DNA from: Deltaproteobacteria bacterium
GTDB lineage: Bacteria; Desulfobacterota; Binatia; UBA9968; JAJDTQ01
NCBI GenBank assembly: GCA_028818775.1
Contig: JAPPNE010000121.1
Span: 1-38,237 of the forward strand
DNA: 38,237 nucleotides
Direction of reading: 5' to 3'
Shown: positions 19,828 to 27,600 of the stretch, in pieces
Layout of the letters: each line of letters starts with the position of its first letter
How positions within the stretch are numbered: position 1 is the first letter of the stretch
The notes under the pieces: model-generated
Seen by the model: only the letters and a program-made list of their open reading frames with translations
Told to the model about the DNA's origin: nothing
The model's database searches: none
Translations under genes and position numbers: made by a program

Positions 19828-21579
19828 TTACCCCTGCCACATGACCACGCGCCGCCCGAGGGCGAAATAAACGACGATCAACGGCACTACCAGGACCAGC
19901 GCCACGAGCGAGACCGCGGCCGCCTGGTTCAGCTCGCCGTCTCCCCAGATGGCCCAGATGTAGACCGGCAGCGTCGTGTTGTGGCGGGTCACCAGGAGCG
20001 CCGCCATGGTCAGCTCGCTGTAGGCGAGGAGCGCCATCCAGAGCCAGGCGTAGAGCAGAGTCGGAGCGAGCAGCGGCCTCACAATGCGCCAGAACACGGT
20101 CATGGGCTCCAGCCCGGACACGGCGCCCGCCTCGTCGAGATCCTTGTGGATCTGCAACAGCGAAGAGTTGTACATCCTCGTGGCGAAGGGAATCCGGGCG
20201 ACGACGTTCACCAGGATGATGATGCCGATGGTGCCGTAGAAGGGAACGTAGGCCGGCAGCCAGAACAGGGCGATGAACAGCGCGCCCACCGCGAAGATCA
20301 TGTTGGGTATGACGTGGGGCAGGAAGGAGACGACGTCGAAGAGCCCGGAGAGCCGGTTCTTGCGCTTGACGATGTTCCAGGACAGCGCCACCCCGACGAG
20401 CGTCGCCAGGGTCGGCACCGCCAGCGTCAGCACCGCGGAGTTCCGGAGCGAGGACCAGAAGGTAGTCCACGGTATGTTCTCGAAATTGGACAAAGTCACC
20501 ATACCCAAAGCCGACCACGACGGCACCATGAGAAACGGGATCAGGGAGGCCCACACGAGCATCAACAGCGGCAACAGCAGGTTGAGCGTGACCACCGATC
20601 CGATGAAGAGCCAGCCCGCGATGCGCCACCGGCCCAACTCGATGAGCCGCGGGCGATAGGCCTTGCCCGATATCACCTGGTAGCGTTCGCCGCGCCGGAT
20701 GGTGCGCAGGTACCACCAGCTTATGAGCAGCGCCAGGGCCATCATGAAGACGCTGGTGGCGCCGACGATGCCGTAGTCCGGCGGCGCGTCGAGGGGCTGG
20801 GCGCGCACGTAGAGGAAGGTGCTCAGGGTGTAGGTGCGGTTGCTCATGCCGAGGAACGCCGGGACGTCGAAGGTCGTGATCCCCAACGCCATGACGTAGA
20901 GGCCCGCCGCCAGGATGCTGGGCCACATGAGCGGCAGCGTCACGCACCAGAGCCGGTCCCGGAAGCGCGCGCCGTGGACCTGCGCGCTCTCCTCCAGGGC
21001 CGGGTCCATGTTGCGGAAGGCGGGCGCGATCATGATGAAGGCCAGCGCCACGAAATTGAGGCCCTGAACGAAGCCCATTCCTGGCACAGCGCCGATGTTG
21101 AAGGGGGCGGCGTCGAGGGAGAAGAGATCCATCAGCCACCGGTTCACCACGCCGATGCGCGGATGGAGAAGGAACTGCCAGCCCATGGCCGGGAAGAAGG
21201 CCGGCACCGCCAAGGTCATGGTGAGCAGCGACACCACCCAGCCGCGTCCCGGCAAGTCCGTGCGCTCCGCCAGGAACGCCATGGGCACGGCCAGCGTGAG
21301 CGAAGTCACCACCACGACCAGGGTGAACCAGAACGTGTTGACGGACGCCCGGAAGGCCGAGTCATCGCGAAAGAACTCGTGGAAGTTGTCGAGTGTCCAG
21401 ACCCCGCCGGCTATCCGCCCTTCCTCGAGGAACGCCACCTGCACCACGACCGCCAACAGCAGGCCGATGACCGCGAACGCGATCAGGCTCAGGACGATGA
21501 AGGGCGGCGCGCCCATCCACAGCCGACGCCATTGCGGCCGGCGCCGGGGTGGCGGATGGTTTGTCGGCGATACGCTCAT
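19828..21579 (-). CDS. ABC transporter permease with two fused membrane domains (Fe(III)/spermidine type)
   Basis: A 583-residue inner-membrane protein made of two tandem BPD_transp_1 domains, roughly residues 70-275 and 355-565, like FbpB/AfuB/ThiP permeases. The EAA-type loops that contact an ATPase are visible: ALEESAQVHGARFRDRLWCVTLPLMWPS and DLDEAGAVSGLEPMTVFWRIVRPLLAP. The start is the ATG at 21579 by protein alignment; the frame remains open upstream but encodes non-membrane sequence, and no clear ribosome-binding site is present. It lies 74 bp after the gamma-isochorismatase gene, and the matching substrate-binding protein is at 26.5-27.6 kb. No ATP-binding subunit is found in the window. 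Confidence 0.9.
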   Translation of the reverse strand: MSVSPTNHPPPRRRPQWRRLWMGAPPFIVLSLIAFAVIGLLLAVVVQVAFLEEGRIAGGVWTLDNFHEFFRDDSAFRASVNTFWFTLVVVVTSLTLAVPMAFLAERTDLPGRGWVVSLLTMTLAVPAFFPAMGWQFLLHPRIGVVNRWLMDLFSLDAAPFNIGAVPGMGFVQGLNFVALAFIMIAPAFRNMDPALEESAQVHGARFRDRLWCVTLPLMWPSILAAGLYVMALGITTFDVPAFLGMSNRTYTLSTFLYVRAQPLDAPPDYGIVGATSVFMMALALLISWWYLRTIRRGERYQVISGKAYRPRLIELGRWRIAGWLFIGSVVTLNLLLPLLMLVWASLIPFLMVPSWSALGMVTLSNFENIPWTTFWSSLRNSAVLTLAVPTLATLVGVALSWNIVKRKNRLSGLFDVVSFLPHVIPNMIFAVGALFIALFWLPAYVPFYGTIGIIILVNVVARIPFATRMYNSSLLQIHKDLDEAGAVSGLEPMTVFWRIVRPLLAPTLLYAWLWMALLAYSELTMAALLVTRHNTTLPVYIWAIWGDGELNQAAAVSLVALVLVVPLIVVYFALGRRVVMWQG

Positions 21580-21653: not shown

Positions 21654-22463
21654 CTAACGGAACTCTATGGCGGCGAGCCTGGAGAACCGGAACCGGCCGG
21701 CGACCCGCGGCAGGACCGTGAACTGGTGCAACGTGTACTCCATTTCGTAGTCGGAATGGGCGTAAACGCCGTCCATTGGCACCACCACCGTGTAGCCGTG
21801 GGCGCGCGCCGCCGTGGTGGCTGTGTAGAGCAGCGCGAAGTTGGCCGCACCGCCCAGAAACACCAGCGTGTCGGTCCCCCAATCTTCCAGCAGCGCCCGC
21901 AGCTCACCGCCGAGGAACTTGTCGTAGCCGTTGGGATAGAGCACCGGCTCTACGTCTCGCCGGGCGAGGGCCTGGGCCACCGCGCCGTCCGGCGTGCCCT
22001 TCTCCCACACCACCACCGTAAACACCACCGGAACGGACGCCGCCCGGGCCTTGTCGAGAAAGGCACGAGCCGGGCGGATCAGCGACTGCGCCGGCTGGGA
22101 CGGGGATTCGGCCTTGGTGTTCAGGTCGAGCACCACCACCGCCGTGCCGCGCGCCTCCAGCACCGCGGACTCCGGCTTGACCCGGTTGGGCGCGGCGCGT
22201 GGCGTGGACCGCTCCTCGTTGATGATCACCGTGGCGTCCAGCGACACCCCGCAGCGGGGGCAATAGCGCTCCTCCAGGAGCGCCCGCCCCTCCATGATCC
22301 GGTGGAACGGCCCCATGCGCCCGGGCGGCAGCAGCCGGGTCACGCAGGCCGCGCGCCAGTCTTCGCCGGCGGCGCACAGCCGGTGGCCGCAGGCGGCGCA
22401 TTGCACCCACTCCGCGCCCCGCTGCTCCACAAGCTCGAGATTTTCCCGCAACGGCCGGCTCAC
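21654..22463 (-). CDS. Fusion: acetone-carboxylase gamma-like zinc domain + isochorismatase-like hydrolase domain
   Basis: A 269-residue protein with two parts. Residues 15-85 follow the acetone carboxylase gamma subunit (PF08882): EWVQCAACGHRLC, a DW pair, then ERYCPRCGVSLD, giving zinc ligands C22, C25, C68 and C71. Residues about 105-260 follow the isochorismatase/cysteine-hydrolase fold: D113 (VVVLDLN), the VPVVFTVVVW strand and the LVFLGGAANFALLYTATTAARAHGYTVVVPMDGV end. The usual catalytic Cys is replaced by A210 (ANFAL). The usual Lys of the triad falls on a Pro/Asn stretch (YPNGYDKF). So normal amidase chemistry is doubtful; isochorismatases such as PhzD also lack the Cys. Its ATG overlaps the HyuB stop (ATGA), so it is coupled to the HyuA/HyuB pair as gamma is in acetone carboxylase operons. 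Confidence 0.82.
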   Translation of the reverse strand: MSRPLRENLELVEQRGAEWVQCAACGHRLCAAGEDWRAACVTRLLPPGRMGPFHRIMEGRALLEERYCPRCGVSLDATVIINEERSTPRAAPNRVKPESAVLEARGTAVVVLDLNTKAESPSQPAQSLIRPARAFLDKARAASVPVVFTVVVWEKGTPDGAVAQALARRDVEPVLYPNGYDKFLGGELRALLEDWGTDTLVFLGGAANFALLYTATTAARAHGYTVVVPMDGVYAHSDYEMEYTLHQFTVLPRVAGRFRFSRLAAIEFR

Positions 22464-24304
22464 GACCCGGCTCCGCGGTTCTCCGAAAGGCGCTGTCGCC
22501 GGATCTCCTCGGTCGCCTGGAAGTCCACGGCGAGGGAATCTGGGTCTATGACCACGCCGTAGACGTCGCGCGCGGTCTCCACCGACACCAGTTCGTCTTC
22601 CACGTCCTTCAGAACCGCGCGGGGGTCACGGTCCAACGGGCTGCCGTAGCCGCCGCCCATGCCCAAGGTGTAGTAGAGGACGTCGTCGGGCCTCAGCTCG
22701 AAGCTCGCGTAGGGCAGCACCCGCGGCGTGCCTCCCAGCTCGTCGAGGTTCTGCGGCACCCTGTTGGCGTGGAGCTTCTCACCCAGCGCGGTGCCCTCCA
22801 GGTGCACGAGGATGCTCGGCGCCCCGGGGTAGCCCCCGAAGATGCCGCGGCCGCCGTTGACGAGACCGGCCACGCCGAAGGCGACGCCTTCGATCTTGCC
22901 CTCCGGCGCCTTGTGCACCGAGAACGCCATCTCCGCGCCGGTGCCTCCGCGATAGCGGCCCGCTCCCTGCTGGTCCCTGGCATGGCGCCGGAACAGGAAC
23001 AGCATCGGGCAGTTCATTTCCAGCCACTCCACGTTGGGACAGGTCATGAAGTCGAGCTTGGTGGTGTCGACCCCGTCCATGGTGGCGCGGGCTCCGCTGC
23101 CGCTGAGGGGCGACATGGCCAGGCTCGTGGAATAGAACGCGCCGTGCTGGTTCACCCCCGACGTCCGCACCCGTCGCCCGCCCCAGATCCGCACCATGAT
23201 CTCGTCGCGCCACGCCTCGCTGCCCGCCAACATGCCGTTGAGCACCGATACCACCACGTACTTGGCGGTGGCGCCGCCCGAGGTGGTGTTGAGGGAGACC
23301 GGCGCCGGATGGGTGACGTTCACCAGGGTCCCCGGCGGCGCGATGGTCTCGATGGGCCGGAACAGCCCGTGGTTGCGGGGGAAATCGTAGGCCACGGTCT
23401 CCACGATGCCTTCGAAGCAGGTGCCGAAGGTGGCGTGGTAAGGCAGGTTGACGCCGACGCTCGCCTGGGGGTCGGTGCCGGTGAAGTCGAAGACCATGCG
23501 GCTGCCCTGCTTCTTCAGGGTCAGCCGGACGGTCCACGAGCCCTCCCTGGACTCGATGGCGGCGCTGTCGCTCCACTCGCCGTCCGGGATCGCCTCCAGG
23601 CGCTTGCGCAGCGCGCGCTCGGAGTAGTCGATCATCTGGGCGGCCACGGCGTCCATGAGGTCGACGCCGTGGTGGCCGTAGAACTGCCTCATGCGCGACT
23701 TGGCCACGCTGTGGCCGGCAAGCTGGCAGTTGATGTCCAGCGCCACCATGTCGGGACGCCGGGTCATGTTGATGAGGGTGTCGAACACGTCCTTGCGCAG
23801 GTTGCCGCGGTCCACCAGCTTGATGCCGGGAATGCGCAGGCCCTCGTGACAGATCTCCTTGGCCTCGGGGGAATCGCCGCCCGGGGACATGGCGCCGATG
23901 TCCATCACGTGGACGAACGACGCGCTCCACGCGATCAGACGCCCCTCCACGTGGATGGGGGAGATGAGGTAGACATCGGATTGGTGCACCGCGGAGACGT
24001 AGGGGTCGTTCAGGAGGAACACGTCGTCCTCGTGCACGCCGTCGTATTCGGCGAAGCGCTCGATGATCCACTTCACCGTGAAGCCGGCGCAGGCCACGTG
24101 CCAGGGCATGGACTCGCCGGTGGCGAGGATCTCGCCGTCGGCCCGGTAGAGCGAGGCCATGTAGTCGTGCATCTGGGTGGTGTTGACCGTTCCGCCGACC
24201 CGCTCGATGGTGGCGCCCATCTCCTTGGCGATGCGCTGGAGCCGGTGCGAGAGGATCTCGAAGGTCACCGGATCCACGGTGCTGCCGCTATCGTTGCGCT
24301 CCAT
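22460..24304 (-). CDS. Hydantoinase B / acetone carboxylase alpha-like subunit
   Basis: A 614-residue HyuB-type protein (PF02538). Family blocks include DPVTFEILSHRLQRIAKEMGATIERV, an HDYMASLYRADGEILATG segment, LLNDPYVSAVHQSDVYLI and DFTGTDPQASVGVNLP. GAGRYRGGTGAEMAF and the LGMGGGYGSPLDRDP ending follow. In hydantoinases and acetone or acetophenone carboxylases this subunit carries out the second half-reaction: ring opening, or carboxylation of a phosphoenol-type intermediate. It is shorter than acetone carboxylase alpha (about 775 residues). It overlaps HyuA by 17 bp upstream and the gamma-isochorismatase gene by 4 bp downstream, so the three are translationally coupled and probably form one complex. 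Confidence 0.93.
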   Translation of the reverse strand: MERNDSGSTVDPVTFEILSHRLQRIAKEMGATIERVGGTVNTTQMHDYMASLYRADGEILATGESMPWHVACAGFTVKWIIERFAEYDGVHEDDVFLLNDPYVSAVHQSDVYLISPIHVEGRLIAWSASFVHVMDIGAMSPGGDSPEAKEICHEGLRIPGIKLVDRGNLRKDVFDTLINMTRRPDMVALDINCQLAGHSVAKSRMRQFYGHHGVDLMDAVAAQMIDYSERALRKRLEAIPDGEWSDSAAIESREGSWTVRLTLKKQGSRMVFDFTGTDPQASVGVNLPYHATFGTCFEGIVETVAYDFPRNHGLFRPIETIAPPGTLVNVTHPAPVSLNTTSGGATAKYVVVSVLNGMLAGSEAWRDEIMVRIWGGRRVRTSGVNQHGAFYSTSLAMSPLSGSGARATMDGVDTTKLDFMTCPNVEWLEMNCPMLFLFRRHARDQQGAGRYRGGTGAEMAFSVHKAPEGKIEGVAFGVAGLVNGGRGIFGGYPGAPSILVHLEGTALGEKLHANRVPQNLDELGGTPRVLPYASFELRPDDVLYYTLGMGGGYGSPLDRDPRAVLKDVEDELVSVETARDVYGVVIDPDSLAVDFQATEEIRRQRLSENRGAGS

Positions 24305-26435
24305 CGTCCTCCCTCCTGGAAAGGGTCGCGCGCGACCCCACCGTGATGCGGACGTTGCCCAGTTCGTCCATCACCGCCCGGTCGCCCGGGTTGATCAGGA
24401 TGGTCGTGATGGGTGTCTCGATGACACCGGGTTCGGCGATGACCATGCCCGGGCGCATCCGTGCGACATCGTAGAGCACGGTGGGCGCGAAGTCGCCGAA
24501 CTCCTCGAAATAGACCGGCCGGGTGCCCTTGCGGGCGGCCGATGCCTCGCCGCCGCCCTCCAACGCGCGCAGGGCAGGCTTGGGCAGCGCCCCCGAGCCG
24601 GTGACCCGCAACGTGACGATCTCCCGCCCGGCGGCCCGGTAGGCGGAACCCTTCCCGTAGGCGGCCTCGTAGAGACCGTCGAAGCGCGTGTACACGGCTT
24701 CGAGGTCCTCGTCGGTCAGGGGCGCCTCGCCCGGCGGGATCGGCACGTTGATCTCGTGGACCTGGTAGCGGTAGCGCATGTCCACGCTCCGCGCCAGGGT
24801 GATGTCATCATCGCCGAAACCCGCGTCCTCCAGGCTGCGGCGCACCTTGGCCAGGACCGGGGAGAATGACGCGTTCAGACGGTCCGGGGGCACCGGCACC
24901 AGGGAGCGGTCGGAGACCCCCTCCTCGTACACGACGTCCGAGGCCACCAGGCCCACGGCGCCGTGGACCGAGGCGGTCACCGGGACCACCACCTGCTCGA
25001 TGCCCAACTCGGCCGCGAACCGCCCTGCATGCACGGGGCAGGCACCGCCGAAGGCGAACATCGTGTCGCCTCGGGGGTCGTGTCCCCTCTGGATGGTGGC
25101 GTTGCGGATAAGGTCGCTCATCTGGGCGTTGACGATGCGGTGGATGGCGCCGGCCGCCTCGGTAACGCTCATGCCCAGGGGCTCGGCCACCTTCTCCGCC
25201 ACGGCCCGGCGCGCCGCCTCCACGTCGAGGGCAATCTGTCCGCCGAGGAAATACTCGGGGTTCAGGTAACCGAGGATCAGGCTCGCGTCGGTGACCGTGG
25301 GCTCGGTGCCGCCGCGGTTGTAACACACCGGCCCGGGGCTGGCGCCGGCGCCTCGCGGACCGACCTTGAGGAGGCCCGTCCCCTCCTCGATCCAGGCGAT
25401 GCTGCCACCGCCGGCGCCGATGGACTCCACCCAGATCTTGGGGGACAAGAGACGGTAGCGCAGGAAGACGGGCTGGTAGTCCCGCTCCATGACGGCGTCG
25501 CGGATGATGCCGACCTTGAAGGTGGTGCCGCCCATGTCCGCGGCCACGATGTGGTCGATGCCGGTCAAACCGCCCATGTAGCGGCACGCCGCGACCCCGG
25601 CCGCGGGGCCCGACTCGATGGTGCCCACGGCCTTGCGCACCGAATCGTCCACCCCCAGGACGCCGCCGTAAGCCTGCATGACCAACGGCTCGCGCTGAAG
25701 TCCGCGGTCGCGCAGCAGCGCGCGCAGGTCGTTCAGGTACGCGCTGATCCTCGGGCCGATGTAGGCATTGAACACCGTGGTGGCCGTGCGTTCGTACTCC
25801 CCCTGGAAGGACGCCGCCTCGCTGGAGAGCGTGACGAAGAGGTCCGGGTAGCGCTGCCGCAACAGCTTCCCGAGCAGCCGCTCATGGCAATCGTTGGCGA
25901 TGGACCAGATAAGCGACACCGCCACGGACTCGACGCCGTTGTCCACGAGCTTGCGGATGGCGTCCTCGGCCTCGGCTTCATCCAGGCCCACGAGCACGTC
26001 GCCCTCGAAGTCCACGCGCTCGTTGACCTCGGCGATGCGCCGCTTGGGCACGAGGGGGTCCGGCTTGGTCAGGGCCGCCATGTGGTGGGCCTCGGACTCG
26101 GGGAGTCCGGCCACCACGCCGCCGCGCATCATCAGGATGGTGTCGCCGAACCCGGCGGTGGCGATGAGCCCGGTGCGCGCGCCGCTGCGCGTGATCAGCG
26201 TGTTATCGCCAATGGTGCACGCGTGGTAGAAGAGCCGGGTGGCCTGCAGCAACCCGCGTTCGTCCTCCATGCCGAGGTTGCGCGCCGCGTCGCGCACGGC
26301 GTCCAGCACGCCCAGCGCAAAGTTCCGCGGCGTCGAGGACGCCTTGCCCAGGGTCATGCCCCCCTCGCCGCTCACCGCGACACAATCGGTGAACGTGCCT
26401 CCGATGTCGACGCCGACGATGTAGTTGTCGTTCAC
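24288..26435 (-). CDS. Hydantoinase A / acetone carboxylase beta-like ATPase subunit
   Basis: A 715-residue HyuA-type protein (PF05378 + PF01968). It opens with YIVGVDIGGTFTDCVAV, the acetate/sugar-kinase-like phosphate loop. It also has YRTGLIA-like RTGLIATAGFGD, SGPAAGVAACRYMGG, AADMGGTTFKVGI, SIGAGGGSIAWIEEG and the FGGACPVHAGRFAAELGIEQVVVP end blocks. This subunit activates the substrate by ATP-dependent phosphorylation for hydrolysis or carboxylation. The start is GTG at 26435; it lies within one arm of a diverged repeat element, and no good ribosome-binding site is visible. It is the second gene after the ABC binding protein. Hydantoinase, 5-oxoprolinase and ketone carboxylase activity cannot be told apart by sequence alone, but the linked gamma domain favours a carboxylase-like role. 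Confidence 0.93.
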   Translation of the reverse strand: MNDNYIVGVDIGGTFTDCVAVSGEGGMTLGKASSTPRNFALGVLDAVRDAARNLGMEDERGLLQATRLFYHACTIGDNTLITRSGARTGLIATAGFGDTILMMRGGVVAGLPESEAHHMAALTKPDPLVPKRRIAEVNERVDFEGDVLVGLDEAEAEDAIRKLVDNGVESVAVSLIWSIANDCHERLLGKLLRQRYPDLFVTLSSEAASFQGEYERTATTVFNAYIGPRISAYLNDLRALLRDRGLQREPLVMQAYGGVLGVDDSVRKAVGTIESGPAAGVAACRYMGGLTGIDHIVAADMGGTTFKVGIIRDAVMERDYQPVFLRYRLLSPKIWVESIGAGGGSIAWIEEGTGLLKVGPRGAGASPGPVCYNRGGTEPTVTDASLILGYLNPEYFLGGQIALDVEAARRAVAEKVAEPLGMSVTEAAGAIHRIVNAQMSDLIRNATIQRGHDPRGDTMFAFGGACPVHAGRFAAELGIEQVVVPVTASVHGAVGLVASDVVYEEGVSDRSLVPVPPDRLNASFSPVLAKVRRSLEDAGFGDDDITLARSVDMRYRYQVHEINVPIPPGEAPLTDEDLEAVYTRFDGLYEAAYGKGSAYRAAGREIVTLRVTGSGALPKPALRALEGGGEASAARKGTRPVYFEEFGDFAPTVLYDVARMRPGMVIAEPGVIETPITTILINPGDRAVMDELGNVRITVGSRATLSRREDDGAQR

Positions 26436-26490
26436 GCTCGTGTCCCGGCTACACGGCCGAGGGGACAGGCATTTACGGGACGCGACACTA
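26434..26490. repeat. Diverged short relative of the 161 bp palindromic element
   Basis: The arm at 26471-26490, read on the minus strand, matches the left end of the 8975-9135 element at 17 of 20 positions (TAGTGTCGCGTCCCGTAAAT against TAGTGTCGTGTTCCGTAATT). The opposite arm (26434-26447) matches at 10 of 14. The internal part is much shorter. It fills the 52 bp between the ABC binding-protein stop and hyuA and covers the hyuA GTG start. Confidence 0.5.
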
Positions 26491-27600
26491 GTTCCCGCGC
26501 AACTTCTTGGCGAGCTTGCGGGAGACCTTCTGGTAGAAGTACGCGTTCTTCACCACGTTCTGGTCGGTGCCGAAGTAGATCTTGGCACCGGCGGCGCGCT
26601 TGCTCTCCACCAGCTTGTTGAGCTGCGAACCTTCGCGGAACGGCGAATCACGCCCGATGACCTTCCAGATGGTGTCCTGTCCCTGCTTGGTCAACGTGTA
26701 AACGGCGAGGAGCTTCGCGAGATTGGGATGCGCGCTCGTCTTCGGCACGCTGACCTCGCTCGCGGTGCCCGACATGAAATCGTCCATGGTGGCGAAATCC
26801 ACCGGCCCCCCCTTGGCCTTGAGCCGGGAATAGGCCACCGGCTTGGTGTCGAAGGCGAAGATCGGGAACTCGCCCGTGGCCACGCGATTGTGCACGCCCG
26901 TGCGCGTGGTGCCGATGATGGTGCCGTTGGCTACCATGGCGTCGACGATCCGGGTGGCTTCCTCCTCACCCAAATGGATCGCCGCCTCGACCCAGCCGAC
27001 GGCAAAGACCGTGGTGCCGATCTTGCCCTTGTACTTGGGGTCGGTGAAGTCCTTGTACGACTTCGGCAGGTCCCCGGCCTTCACCAGGTTGGTGTTGTAA
27101 CCGATCACGTGGATGGCCGCGCCGTTGACCACCGCGGCGCCGTTGATGCCGATCTCCTCGTCCTTCAGGCCGGGCACGAGGTTCTTCCAGTCCACTCTCA
27201 GGAGCGCCCCGGCCTTGTCGGAAGGAATCTGCTGGCGCGAGGGGGCGAAGAAGATGTCGGTGCTGGCGGTGCGCCCGGTCTTGACCTCGTCGATCAGCCG
27301 CGGCATCAGCTTCGACGCGCTCGGTCCGGGAGTCGCCTTGAGGCGCACGTTGATGCCGTAGGTGTTGTTCAGCCCCTTTTCGAGGGCCGCCATGAGTTGC
27401 GGCGAGTGCCAATCGCCCGATCCGAAGACGTTCAACTCGCCTTCCTTTTGCGCCGCGGCGACGAGTTGCTTCAGCGCGTCGCCACCCGACTGAGCCACCG
27501 CCCCGCCGACGAATGCCAGAACCATACCGGCCGCCATGGTCACGACGGCGGCGCGCCGCCAAAAAAGACCCCGATCAAACAGCCCGGAAAGAACCTTCAT
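26488..27600 (-). CDS. ABC transporter substrate-binding protein (Fe(III)/thiamine type, PF13416-like)
   Basis: A 370-residue periplasmic binding protein. A signal sequence with an Arg-rich start (WRRAAVVTMAAGMVLAFVGGAVAQ) is followed by LVAAAQKEGELNVFGSGDWHSPQLMAALEKGLNNTYGINVRLKATPG. That is the typical opening of FutA/AfuA-like and related SBPs. No tyrosine-rich iron site is obvious, so organic substrates are as likely as iron. GGGAGGTAACGACC precedes the ATG at 27600, with a promoter about 60-80 bp upstream. It leads a minus-strand group that continues with HyuA, HyuB, the gamma-isochorismatase fusion and a two-domain permease. Uptake and processing of one compound is a reasonable inference. 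Confidence 0.9.
   Translation of the reverse strand: MKVLSGLFDRGLFWRRAAVVTMAAGMVLAFVGGAVAQSGGDALKQLVAAAQKEGELNVFGSGDWHSPQLMAALEKGLNNTYGINVRLKATPGPSASKLMPRLIDEVKTGRTASTDIFFAPSRQQIPSDKAGALLRVDWKNLVPGLKDEEIGINGAAVVNGAAIHVIGYNTNLVKAGDLPKSYKDFTDPKYKGKIGTTVFAVGWVEAAIHLGEEEATRIVDAMVANGTIIGTTRTGVHNRVATGEFPIFAFDTKPVAYSRLKAKGGPVDFATMDDFMSGTASEVSVPKTSAHPNLAKLLAVYTLTKQGQDTIWKVIGRDSPFREGSQLNKLVESKRAAGAKIYFGTDQNVVKNAYFYQKVSRKLAKKLRGN

Follow-up and report, generated by a model that had tools for sequence, protein, structure and literature searches.

Why should the gamma domain of an acetone carboxylase be joined in one polypeptide to a domain of the isochorismatase fold, and what might such a protein do beside the genes of a HyuA/HyuB pair? 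The question is raised by a gene in a 38,237-nucleotide stretch of DNA, here called the window (contig JAPPNE010000121.1 of assembly GCA_028818775.1, from a Deltaproteobacteria bacterium), which encodes a protein of 269 aa on the minus strand (21654..22463, with a GTG start at 22463 and the stop at 21654). It comprises an N-terminal gamma-like zinc domain of the acetone-carboxylase type (residues 4-77, 22233..22454), a linker (residues 84-105, 22149..22214) and a C-terminal isochorismatase-fold domain (residues 107-247, 21723..22145), all read from the minus strand, and with this two-domain protein the hydantoinase/ketone-carboxylase family gains a new domain architecture. Literature searches, with most subscription journals outside their reach, found no description of the fusion and no paper bringing together the terms 'acetone carboxylase gamma' and 'isochorismatase'.

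The gene lies in an apparent operon, also on the minus strand, whose first gene encodes an ABC-transporter solute-binding protein (26488..27600, PF13343), followed by a HyuA-like ATP-binding subunit of 715 aa (24288..26435; PF05378, PF01968 and PF19278), a HyuB-like subunit of 614 aa (22460..24304, PF02538), the fusion, and an ABC-transporter permease of 583 aa (19828..21579, probable start 21579, PF00528). The sequence-only reading had described an ATGA coupling between the fusion and HyuB. The coupling itself was confirmed, since the fusion start overlaps the HyuB stop by 4 nt, but the motif in the window is GTGA, and ATGA was seen only in an alphaproteobacterial relative (L026); the HyuB gene in turn overlaps that of HyuA. 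The permease adjoins the fusion in all five of the loci L021-L025, and the solute-binding protein has the same place in L021, L022, L023 and L025 and was not found in L024. ABC-transporter genes flank the fused operons and several of those in which the two domains are separate genes, in L041 together with the ATPase, and the neighbors of one split operon include an amidohydrolase-2 protein besides an ABC ATPase. The gene that comes directly after the permease in the window codes not for an ABC ATPase but for a Vut_1 family transporter (PF02592, 19139-19744, minus strand), and this gene is also present in L021. The transporter genes beside these operons suggest an imported small substrate, as a candidate only.

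Both domain identities proposed from the sequence alone proved sound, with Pfam matches above the cut-offs and with profile and fold in agreement. The N-terminal match to PF08882, on which the first assignment had been staked, covers residues 4-77 (E 1.6e-4) and exceeds the Pfam cut-off of 21 bits by a narrow margin, at 22.3 bits; therefore, this half was tested by profile and fold as well. In the PDB, a profile built from seven gamma parts matched best two acetone carboxylase gamma chains, 5svb_C (1.9e-5) and 5m45_C (2.6e-5), with 5l9w_C (0.01), from acetophenone carboxylase (Apc) gamma, in third place. The gamma part was also predicted and searched alone (85 residues, AlphaFold pLDDT 79.2), the VIA-align list for the full-length protein being filled by isochorismatase-fold chains. 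A Foldseek search of the PDB with this model returned four matches below 0.001 (5m45_C, 5svb_C, 5svb_F and 5svc_C), all acetone carboxylase gamma and with TM by query of 0.73-0.74, followed by 5l9w_C (0.0064, TM 0.72) and a sixth match at E 0.78. Thus, Pfam, profile and fold confirmed the gamma half. Cys22, Cys25, Cys68 and Cys71 stand where they had been reported, are conserved in all 28 gamma rows of the alignment, whether split or fused, and correspond to Cys22, 25, 75 and 78 of the Apc gamma subunit as given in the sections of PMC5214803 drawn on here. According to the same sections, the beta subunit of Apc holds gamma with its C-terminal arm, which fits both natural fusions, the one in which gamma is attached to the HyuB C-terminus and the one in which it is attached to the enzyme domain that follows.

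The C-terminal half matched PF00857 on residues 107-247 (E 3e-16, 60.4 bits against a cut-off of 27). The full-length AlphaFold model has a pLDDT of 66.4, with values below 50 at 114-129, 152-172, 206-208 and 235-250, which are active-site loops, and low values at 83-94 near the start of the linker. Its residues 95-269 matched isochorismatase-fold structures in Foldseek, and VIA-align to isochorismatase-fold chains gave, among the matches listed, Z of 12-14 and rmsd of 3.0-4.7 over 143-170 residues. The assignments of Ala210 to the nucleophile place and of a retained Asp113 were both right, and the Cys nucleophile is lost. The further remark that there is no obvious Lys holds for the canonical Lys column, which is Pro177, and fails for the domain as a whole, which has an invariant Lys182 within the motif DKF (residues 181-183). 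Residues were counted in 32 rows, the window and its relatives, of which 22 lie next to HyuAB and 10 do not; L027, L059 and L060 were left out as partial. Asp113 and Lys182 are present in 32 of 32, Ala210 in 31 (Ser in L026) and Pro177 in 29; Asp113, DKF, Tyr213, Thr214, Arg220, Asp231-Gly232 and Tyr239 are invariant in all 22 HyuAB-associated rows.

Twenty more distant rows followed the same pattern, with Ala in 10 of 10 that carry DKF, and Cys (9/10) or Gly (1/10) in those that carry the canonical Lys. An isochorismatase tree of 54 rows separates 42 DKF rows from 12 canonical rows by a 100/99 branch. Therefore, the loss of the Cys and the shift of the Lys are coupled and predate the fusion, and, judged from these alignments, the isochorismatase half is a separate subfamily with exchanged catalytic residues and not a product of decay. 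The literature searches made found no description of a DKF subfamily of the isochorismatase fold. Both domains of the fusion are under purifying selection, which is least on the linker: NG86 estimates of dN/dS were 0.147 for gamma and 0.218 for the isochorismatase domain (six fusions, 15 pairs), 0.356 for the linker as the fastest-evolving part (14 usable pairs among the six fusions), and 0.106 for HyuB (five sequences, L024 left out).

Members of the DKF subfamily also occur away from HyuAB, some of them with signal-peptide-like N-termini. Stand-alone proteins of the latter kind are encoded in L035 (7516-8142, plus strand), L040 (8409-9029, minus), L045 (8063-8710, plus) and L057 (1341-2015, minus), and are possibly exported, to judge from these N-termini; no HyuAB match was found near these four genes on the stretches examined.

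Is the domain an enzyme at all? With the Cys and the canonical Lys both replaced, it could be a pseudoenzyme scaffold that only oligomerizes or shapes the HyuAB complex, comparable to the epsilon subunit of acetophenone carboxylase, which is essential and whose role is described as unclear in the excerpts of PMC5214803 available to us. We consider this explanation unlikely, however, given that the residues invariant throughout the HyuAB-associated rows look more like a rebuilt than a lost active site and that DKF proteins exist that stand alone.

The HyuA and HyuB partners bear on what kind of reaction might be involved. The ATP/phosphate motifs of HyuA are intact (DIGGTFTD, DMGGT and PGP), as are the HyuB metal ligands Asp47, His107, Asp110 and His132, which align to Asp41, His99, Asp102 and His124 of caprolactamase (PMC8453981, in the part consulted). 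The best PDB matches were caprolactamase 6yra_A for HyuA and acetophenone carboxylase 5l9w_A for HyuB (by phmmer), with small margins in these rankings. Both subunits score below every curated NCBIfam equivalog cut-off; for the caprolactamase and acetophenone carboxylase equivalogs the values were 553.6 and 232.4 against 1000, and 379.3 and 203.7 against 1500. A 100/100 branch parts the window HyuB from the caprolactamase and N-methylhydantoinase references. ApcD falls on the same side as the window HyuB in a 68-row tree, where it forms a long branch, and grouping it with the hydantoinase rows cost 1.1 log units (AU p 0.38) in a 32-row tree whose rows were selected from the 68. An assignment of the window HyuB to a 'ketone carboxylase' branch, as the 68-row tree had suggested, was dropped, since the AU test does not reject ApcD with the hydantoinases. 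Given the low equivalog scores and this result for ApcD, the description of HyuA and HyuB as a 'carboxylase-like pair' in the sequence-only reading is to be taken as tentative.

Published criteria, as stated in the parts of PMC5214803 used here, describe hydantoinases/oxoprolinases (Hyd) as encoded by two genes with no gamma, and ketone carboxylases as having gamma. The window has a gamma domain, at odds with the Hyd pattern of only two genes. Its order HyuA-HyuB-gamma corresponds to the alpha-beta-gamma order of acetone carboxylases (Acx), but its gamma of ~85 aa and its HyuB of 614 aa differ from an Acx gamma with ~50 extra N-terminal residues and a beta subunit of ~720 aa. By gene order, presence of gamma and lengths, this HyuAB fits the typical form neither of a hydantoinase nor of an acetone carboxylase.

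These observations also bear on a creatinine-type pathway, in which HyuAB would act like N-methylhydantoinase and the second domain would hydrolyze the N-carbamoyl product, as N-carbamoylsarcosine amidase does. Such a sequence, N-methylhydantoinase and then N-carbamoylsarcosine breakdown, was reported in sponge microbiomes in the portion of PMC6742649 consulted, and the N-carbamoylsarcosine amidase 3eef is among our sequence and fold matches. However, 3eef has Lys and Cys at the columns where both are replaced in the window, the HyuB branch just described separates the window from the N-methylhydantoinase reference, and hydantoinases are described as lacking gamma in the text of PMC5214803 cited above; we therefore regard this pathway as quite improbable.

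The sequence-only reading had instead compared the domain with Cys-less isochorismatases that cleave vinyl ethers, and in favor of a hydrolase like EntB or PhzD are the missing Cys, the retained Asp and the presence of several vinyl-ether isochorismatases among the best fold matches, where amidase matches score equally. The comparison did not hold at the level of residues. In the passages of PMC12210187 available, EntB, PhzD and VibB have retained the Lys of the canonical column (Lys123) and rely on the amide of Gly156, and the window subfamily has neither that Lys nor that Gly, its invariant Lys having moved to DKF. Therefore, these enzymes are not the model for the window domain, and a vinyl-ether hydrolase of their type seems very unlikely here.

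We examined related operons for the arrangement of the same domains. Gamma and isochorismatase occur as separate genes near HyuAB in L031, L033, L037 and L041-L044, and the junctions between the two genes overlap in the six split operons read (L031, L033, L037, L041, L042 and L043). Other relatives have HyuAB with isochorismatase and no gamma, with gamma and no isochorismatase, or with gamma on the HyuB C-terminus. In the 68-row HyuB tree the window falls in a clade of 31, made up of 7 fusions, 7 split, 6 isochorismatase only, 5 gamma only, 5 HyuB-gamma and 1 with neither, counts that are not frequencies, because a match to gamma or isochorismatase was what brought a locus into the set; the labels of L021-L026, L056, L085, L105-L129 and L130 were set by hand. 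In each tree one branch sets the fusions apart from all other rows, supported at 100/100 for HyuB and at 100/99 for the isochorismatases, so that on these trees the fusion has a single origin. L033 and L037, with their split genes, form the sister of the isochorismatase-only group in either tree, and such common groups fit joint inheritance of HyuB and isochorismatase. Thus, the claim that the fusion is made with the HyuAB pair gained support from the separate coupled genes of relatives and from the main groups that the two trees share.

Several loci have features of their own. L130 (5995-8163, plus strand, NZ_CP095490.1), on a haloarchaeal plasmid, has gamma at the HyuB C-terminus (PF08882, 31.8 bits) and is annotated only as hydantoinase B. 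The window's own genome has a paralogous HyuA-HyuB-isochorismatase operon without gamma (L028, 3130-11655), which faces a gamma-less hydantoinase-type HyuA-HyuB pair, and the same convergent pair is found in the genus mates L030, L032, L034 and L038. L043 (26-12020) has HyuAB, HyuAB, gamma, isochorismatase, solute-binding protein and permease in tandem, i.e., two HyuAB pairs in one run.

Of the 148 genomes of the class, 7 contain the full-length fusion, each belonging to the same genus as the window; in an eighth, G008, there is a fragment where a contig ends, and G006, which is 76% complete, lacks the fusion. In a phylum sample of 297 genomes, the only full-length copy was the window's own, and among 337 genomes of the class to which L026's genome belongs, the only one was in that genome; besides G345, this class gave only weak matches, and a few of its genomes have gamma and no isochorismatase. 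A close-relative scan of 84,980 species genomes yielded seven loci, six fusions and one fragment, the fusions being titled Candidatus Binatia or uncultured Candidatus Binatia (four), Deltaproteobacteria (one) and Alphaproteobacteria (one, L026), and a plasmid collection gave no match to the fusion (tblastn, E 0.001). So narrow a spread would suit a chance fusion of neighboring genes in one genus with no functional tie to HyuAB, but this is highly improbable in view of the same partnership between separate genes in other genera, the reading frame kept and the constraint on both domains, and the 53% identical fusion and 77% identical HyuB in the alphaproteobacterial MAG. Transfer or mis-binning is possible for the latter (L026, a MAG contig of 5.2 kb).

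The coupling of the genes, the homology, conservation and constraint of the domains and the one fusion event are results of this analysis, and docking, tethering, chemistry and substrate are inferences; we lean slightly toward the fusion being a third subunit of an ATP-dependent HyuA/HyuB complex. The kinase-like HyuA would phosphorylate a small substrate at a carbonyl, after an uptake that the ABC transporter encoded alongside probably provides; HyuB, with its intact metal site, would complete the ATP-driven step. Gamma, held together by one Cys4 zinc site, would dock on HyuB by analogy to acetone and acetophenone carboxylase, and so may tether the isochorismatase-fold domain to HyuAB. This domain would most likely carry out a non-covalent acid/base step via Asp113 and Lys182 on the HyuAB product or an activated intermediate; a reach of Lys182 to Asp113 is hypothetical, as the full-length model is weak around the active site (pLDDT below 50 there). 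The text of PMC5214803 cited above speaks against a part of gamma in this chemistry, since it locates Apc gamma far from the active sites and regards its metal as structural. Against a complex of this kind also stands the related branch of six HyuB rows that keeps isochorismatase without gamma; therefore, gamma is not indispensable for the HyuAB-isochorismatase partnership. Likewise, DKF members occur away from HyuAB, and therefore DKF function need not depend on it. That DKF marks a catalytic class not described before for the isochorismatase fold (Asp and a relocated Lys, no Cys), which gives HyuAB-gamma another catalytic module and so completes a new ATP-dependent reaction, is a tentative suggestion that we put at rather less than even chances; if true, the fusion makes the modularity of HyuAB-gamma complexes visible.

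These operons blur the rule, published in the sections of PMC5214803 referred to above, that parts two-subunit hydantoinases from ketone carboxylases in some measure by whether gamma is present, and in them gamma is a mobile module that either HyuB or a second enzyme domain can bear. The same operons point to an isochorismatase-fold subfamily with coordinated replacement of catalytic residues, such that naming by fold alone as 'cysteine hydrolase' would mis-name its proteins. Finally, the natural HyuB-gamma and gamma-isochorismatase fusions are ready constructs for studying the role of gamma, a matter left open in those sections.

Among known systems, acetone carboxylase gamma (AcxC; PF08882; 5svb_C and 5m45_C) shares with the window its fold, the four Cys and the place directly 3' of the beta-subunit gene, whereas the window gamma is shorter (~85 aa, where AcxC has 168), is without the N-terminal extension and bears a C-terminal enzyme domain. 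The acetophenone carboxylase core complex (5l9w) has the gamma Cys spacing and the HyuA/HyuB homologs in common with the window; however, no alpha-prime gene was seen beside our operon, the gene order differs, and the window has an isochorismatase domain, none being described for Apc in the consulted parts of PMC5214803. CapAB (6yra) and N-methylhydantoinase (7hk5) have a two-gene HyuA-HyuB core of similar length, but this type is described there as two-subunit and without gamma, which the window has. EntB and PhzD share the fold, the Asp and the absence of Cys, and differ from the window in having the canonical Lys and Gly where it has Pro177 and Ala210. Cysteine hydrolases (5ha8, RutB, biuret hydrolase, YecD and N-carbamoylsarcosine amidase) have the fold and the catalytic Asp in common with the window but keep the canonical Lys and Cys, whereas the window domain departs from the Asp-Lys-Cys triad at Pro177 and Ala210 and has the invariant DKF instead.
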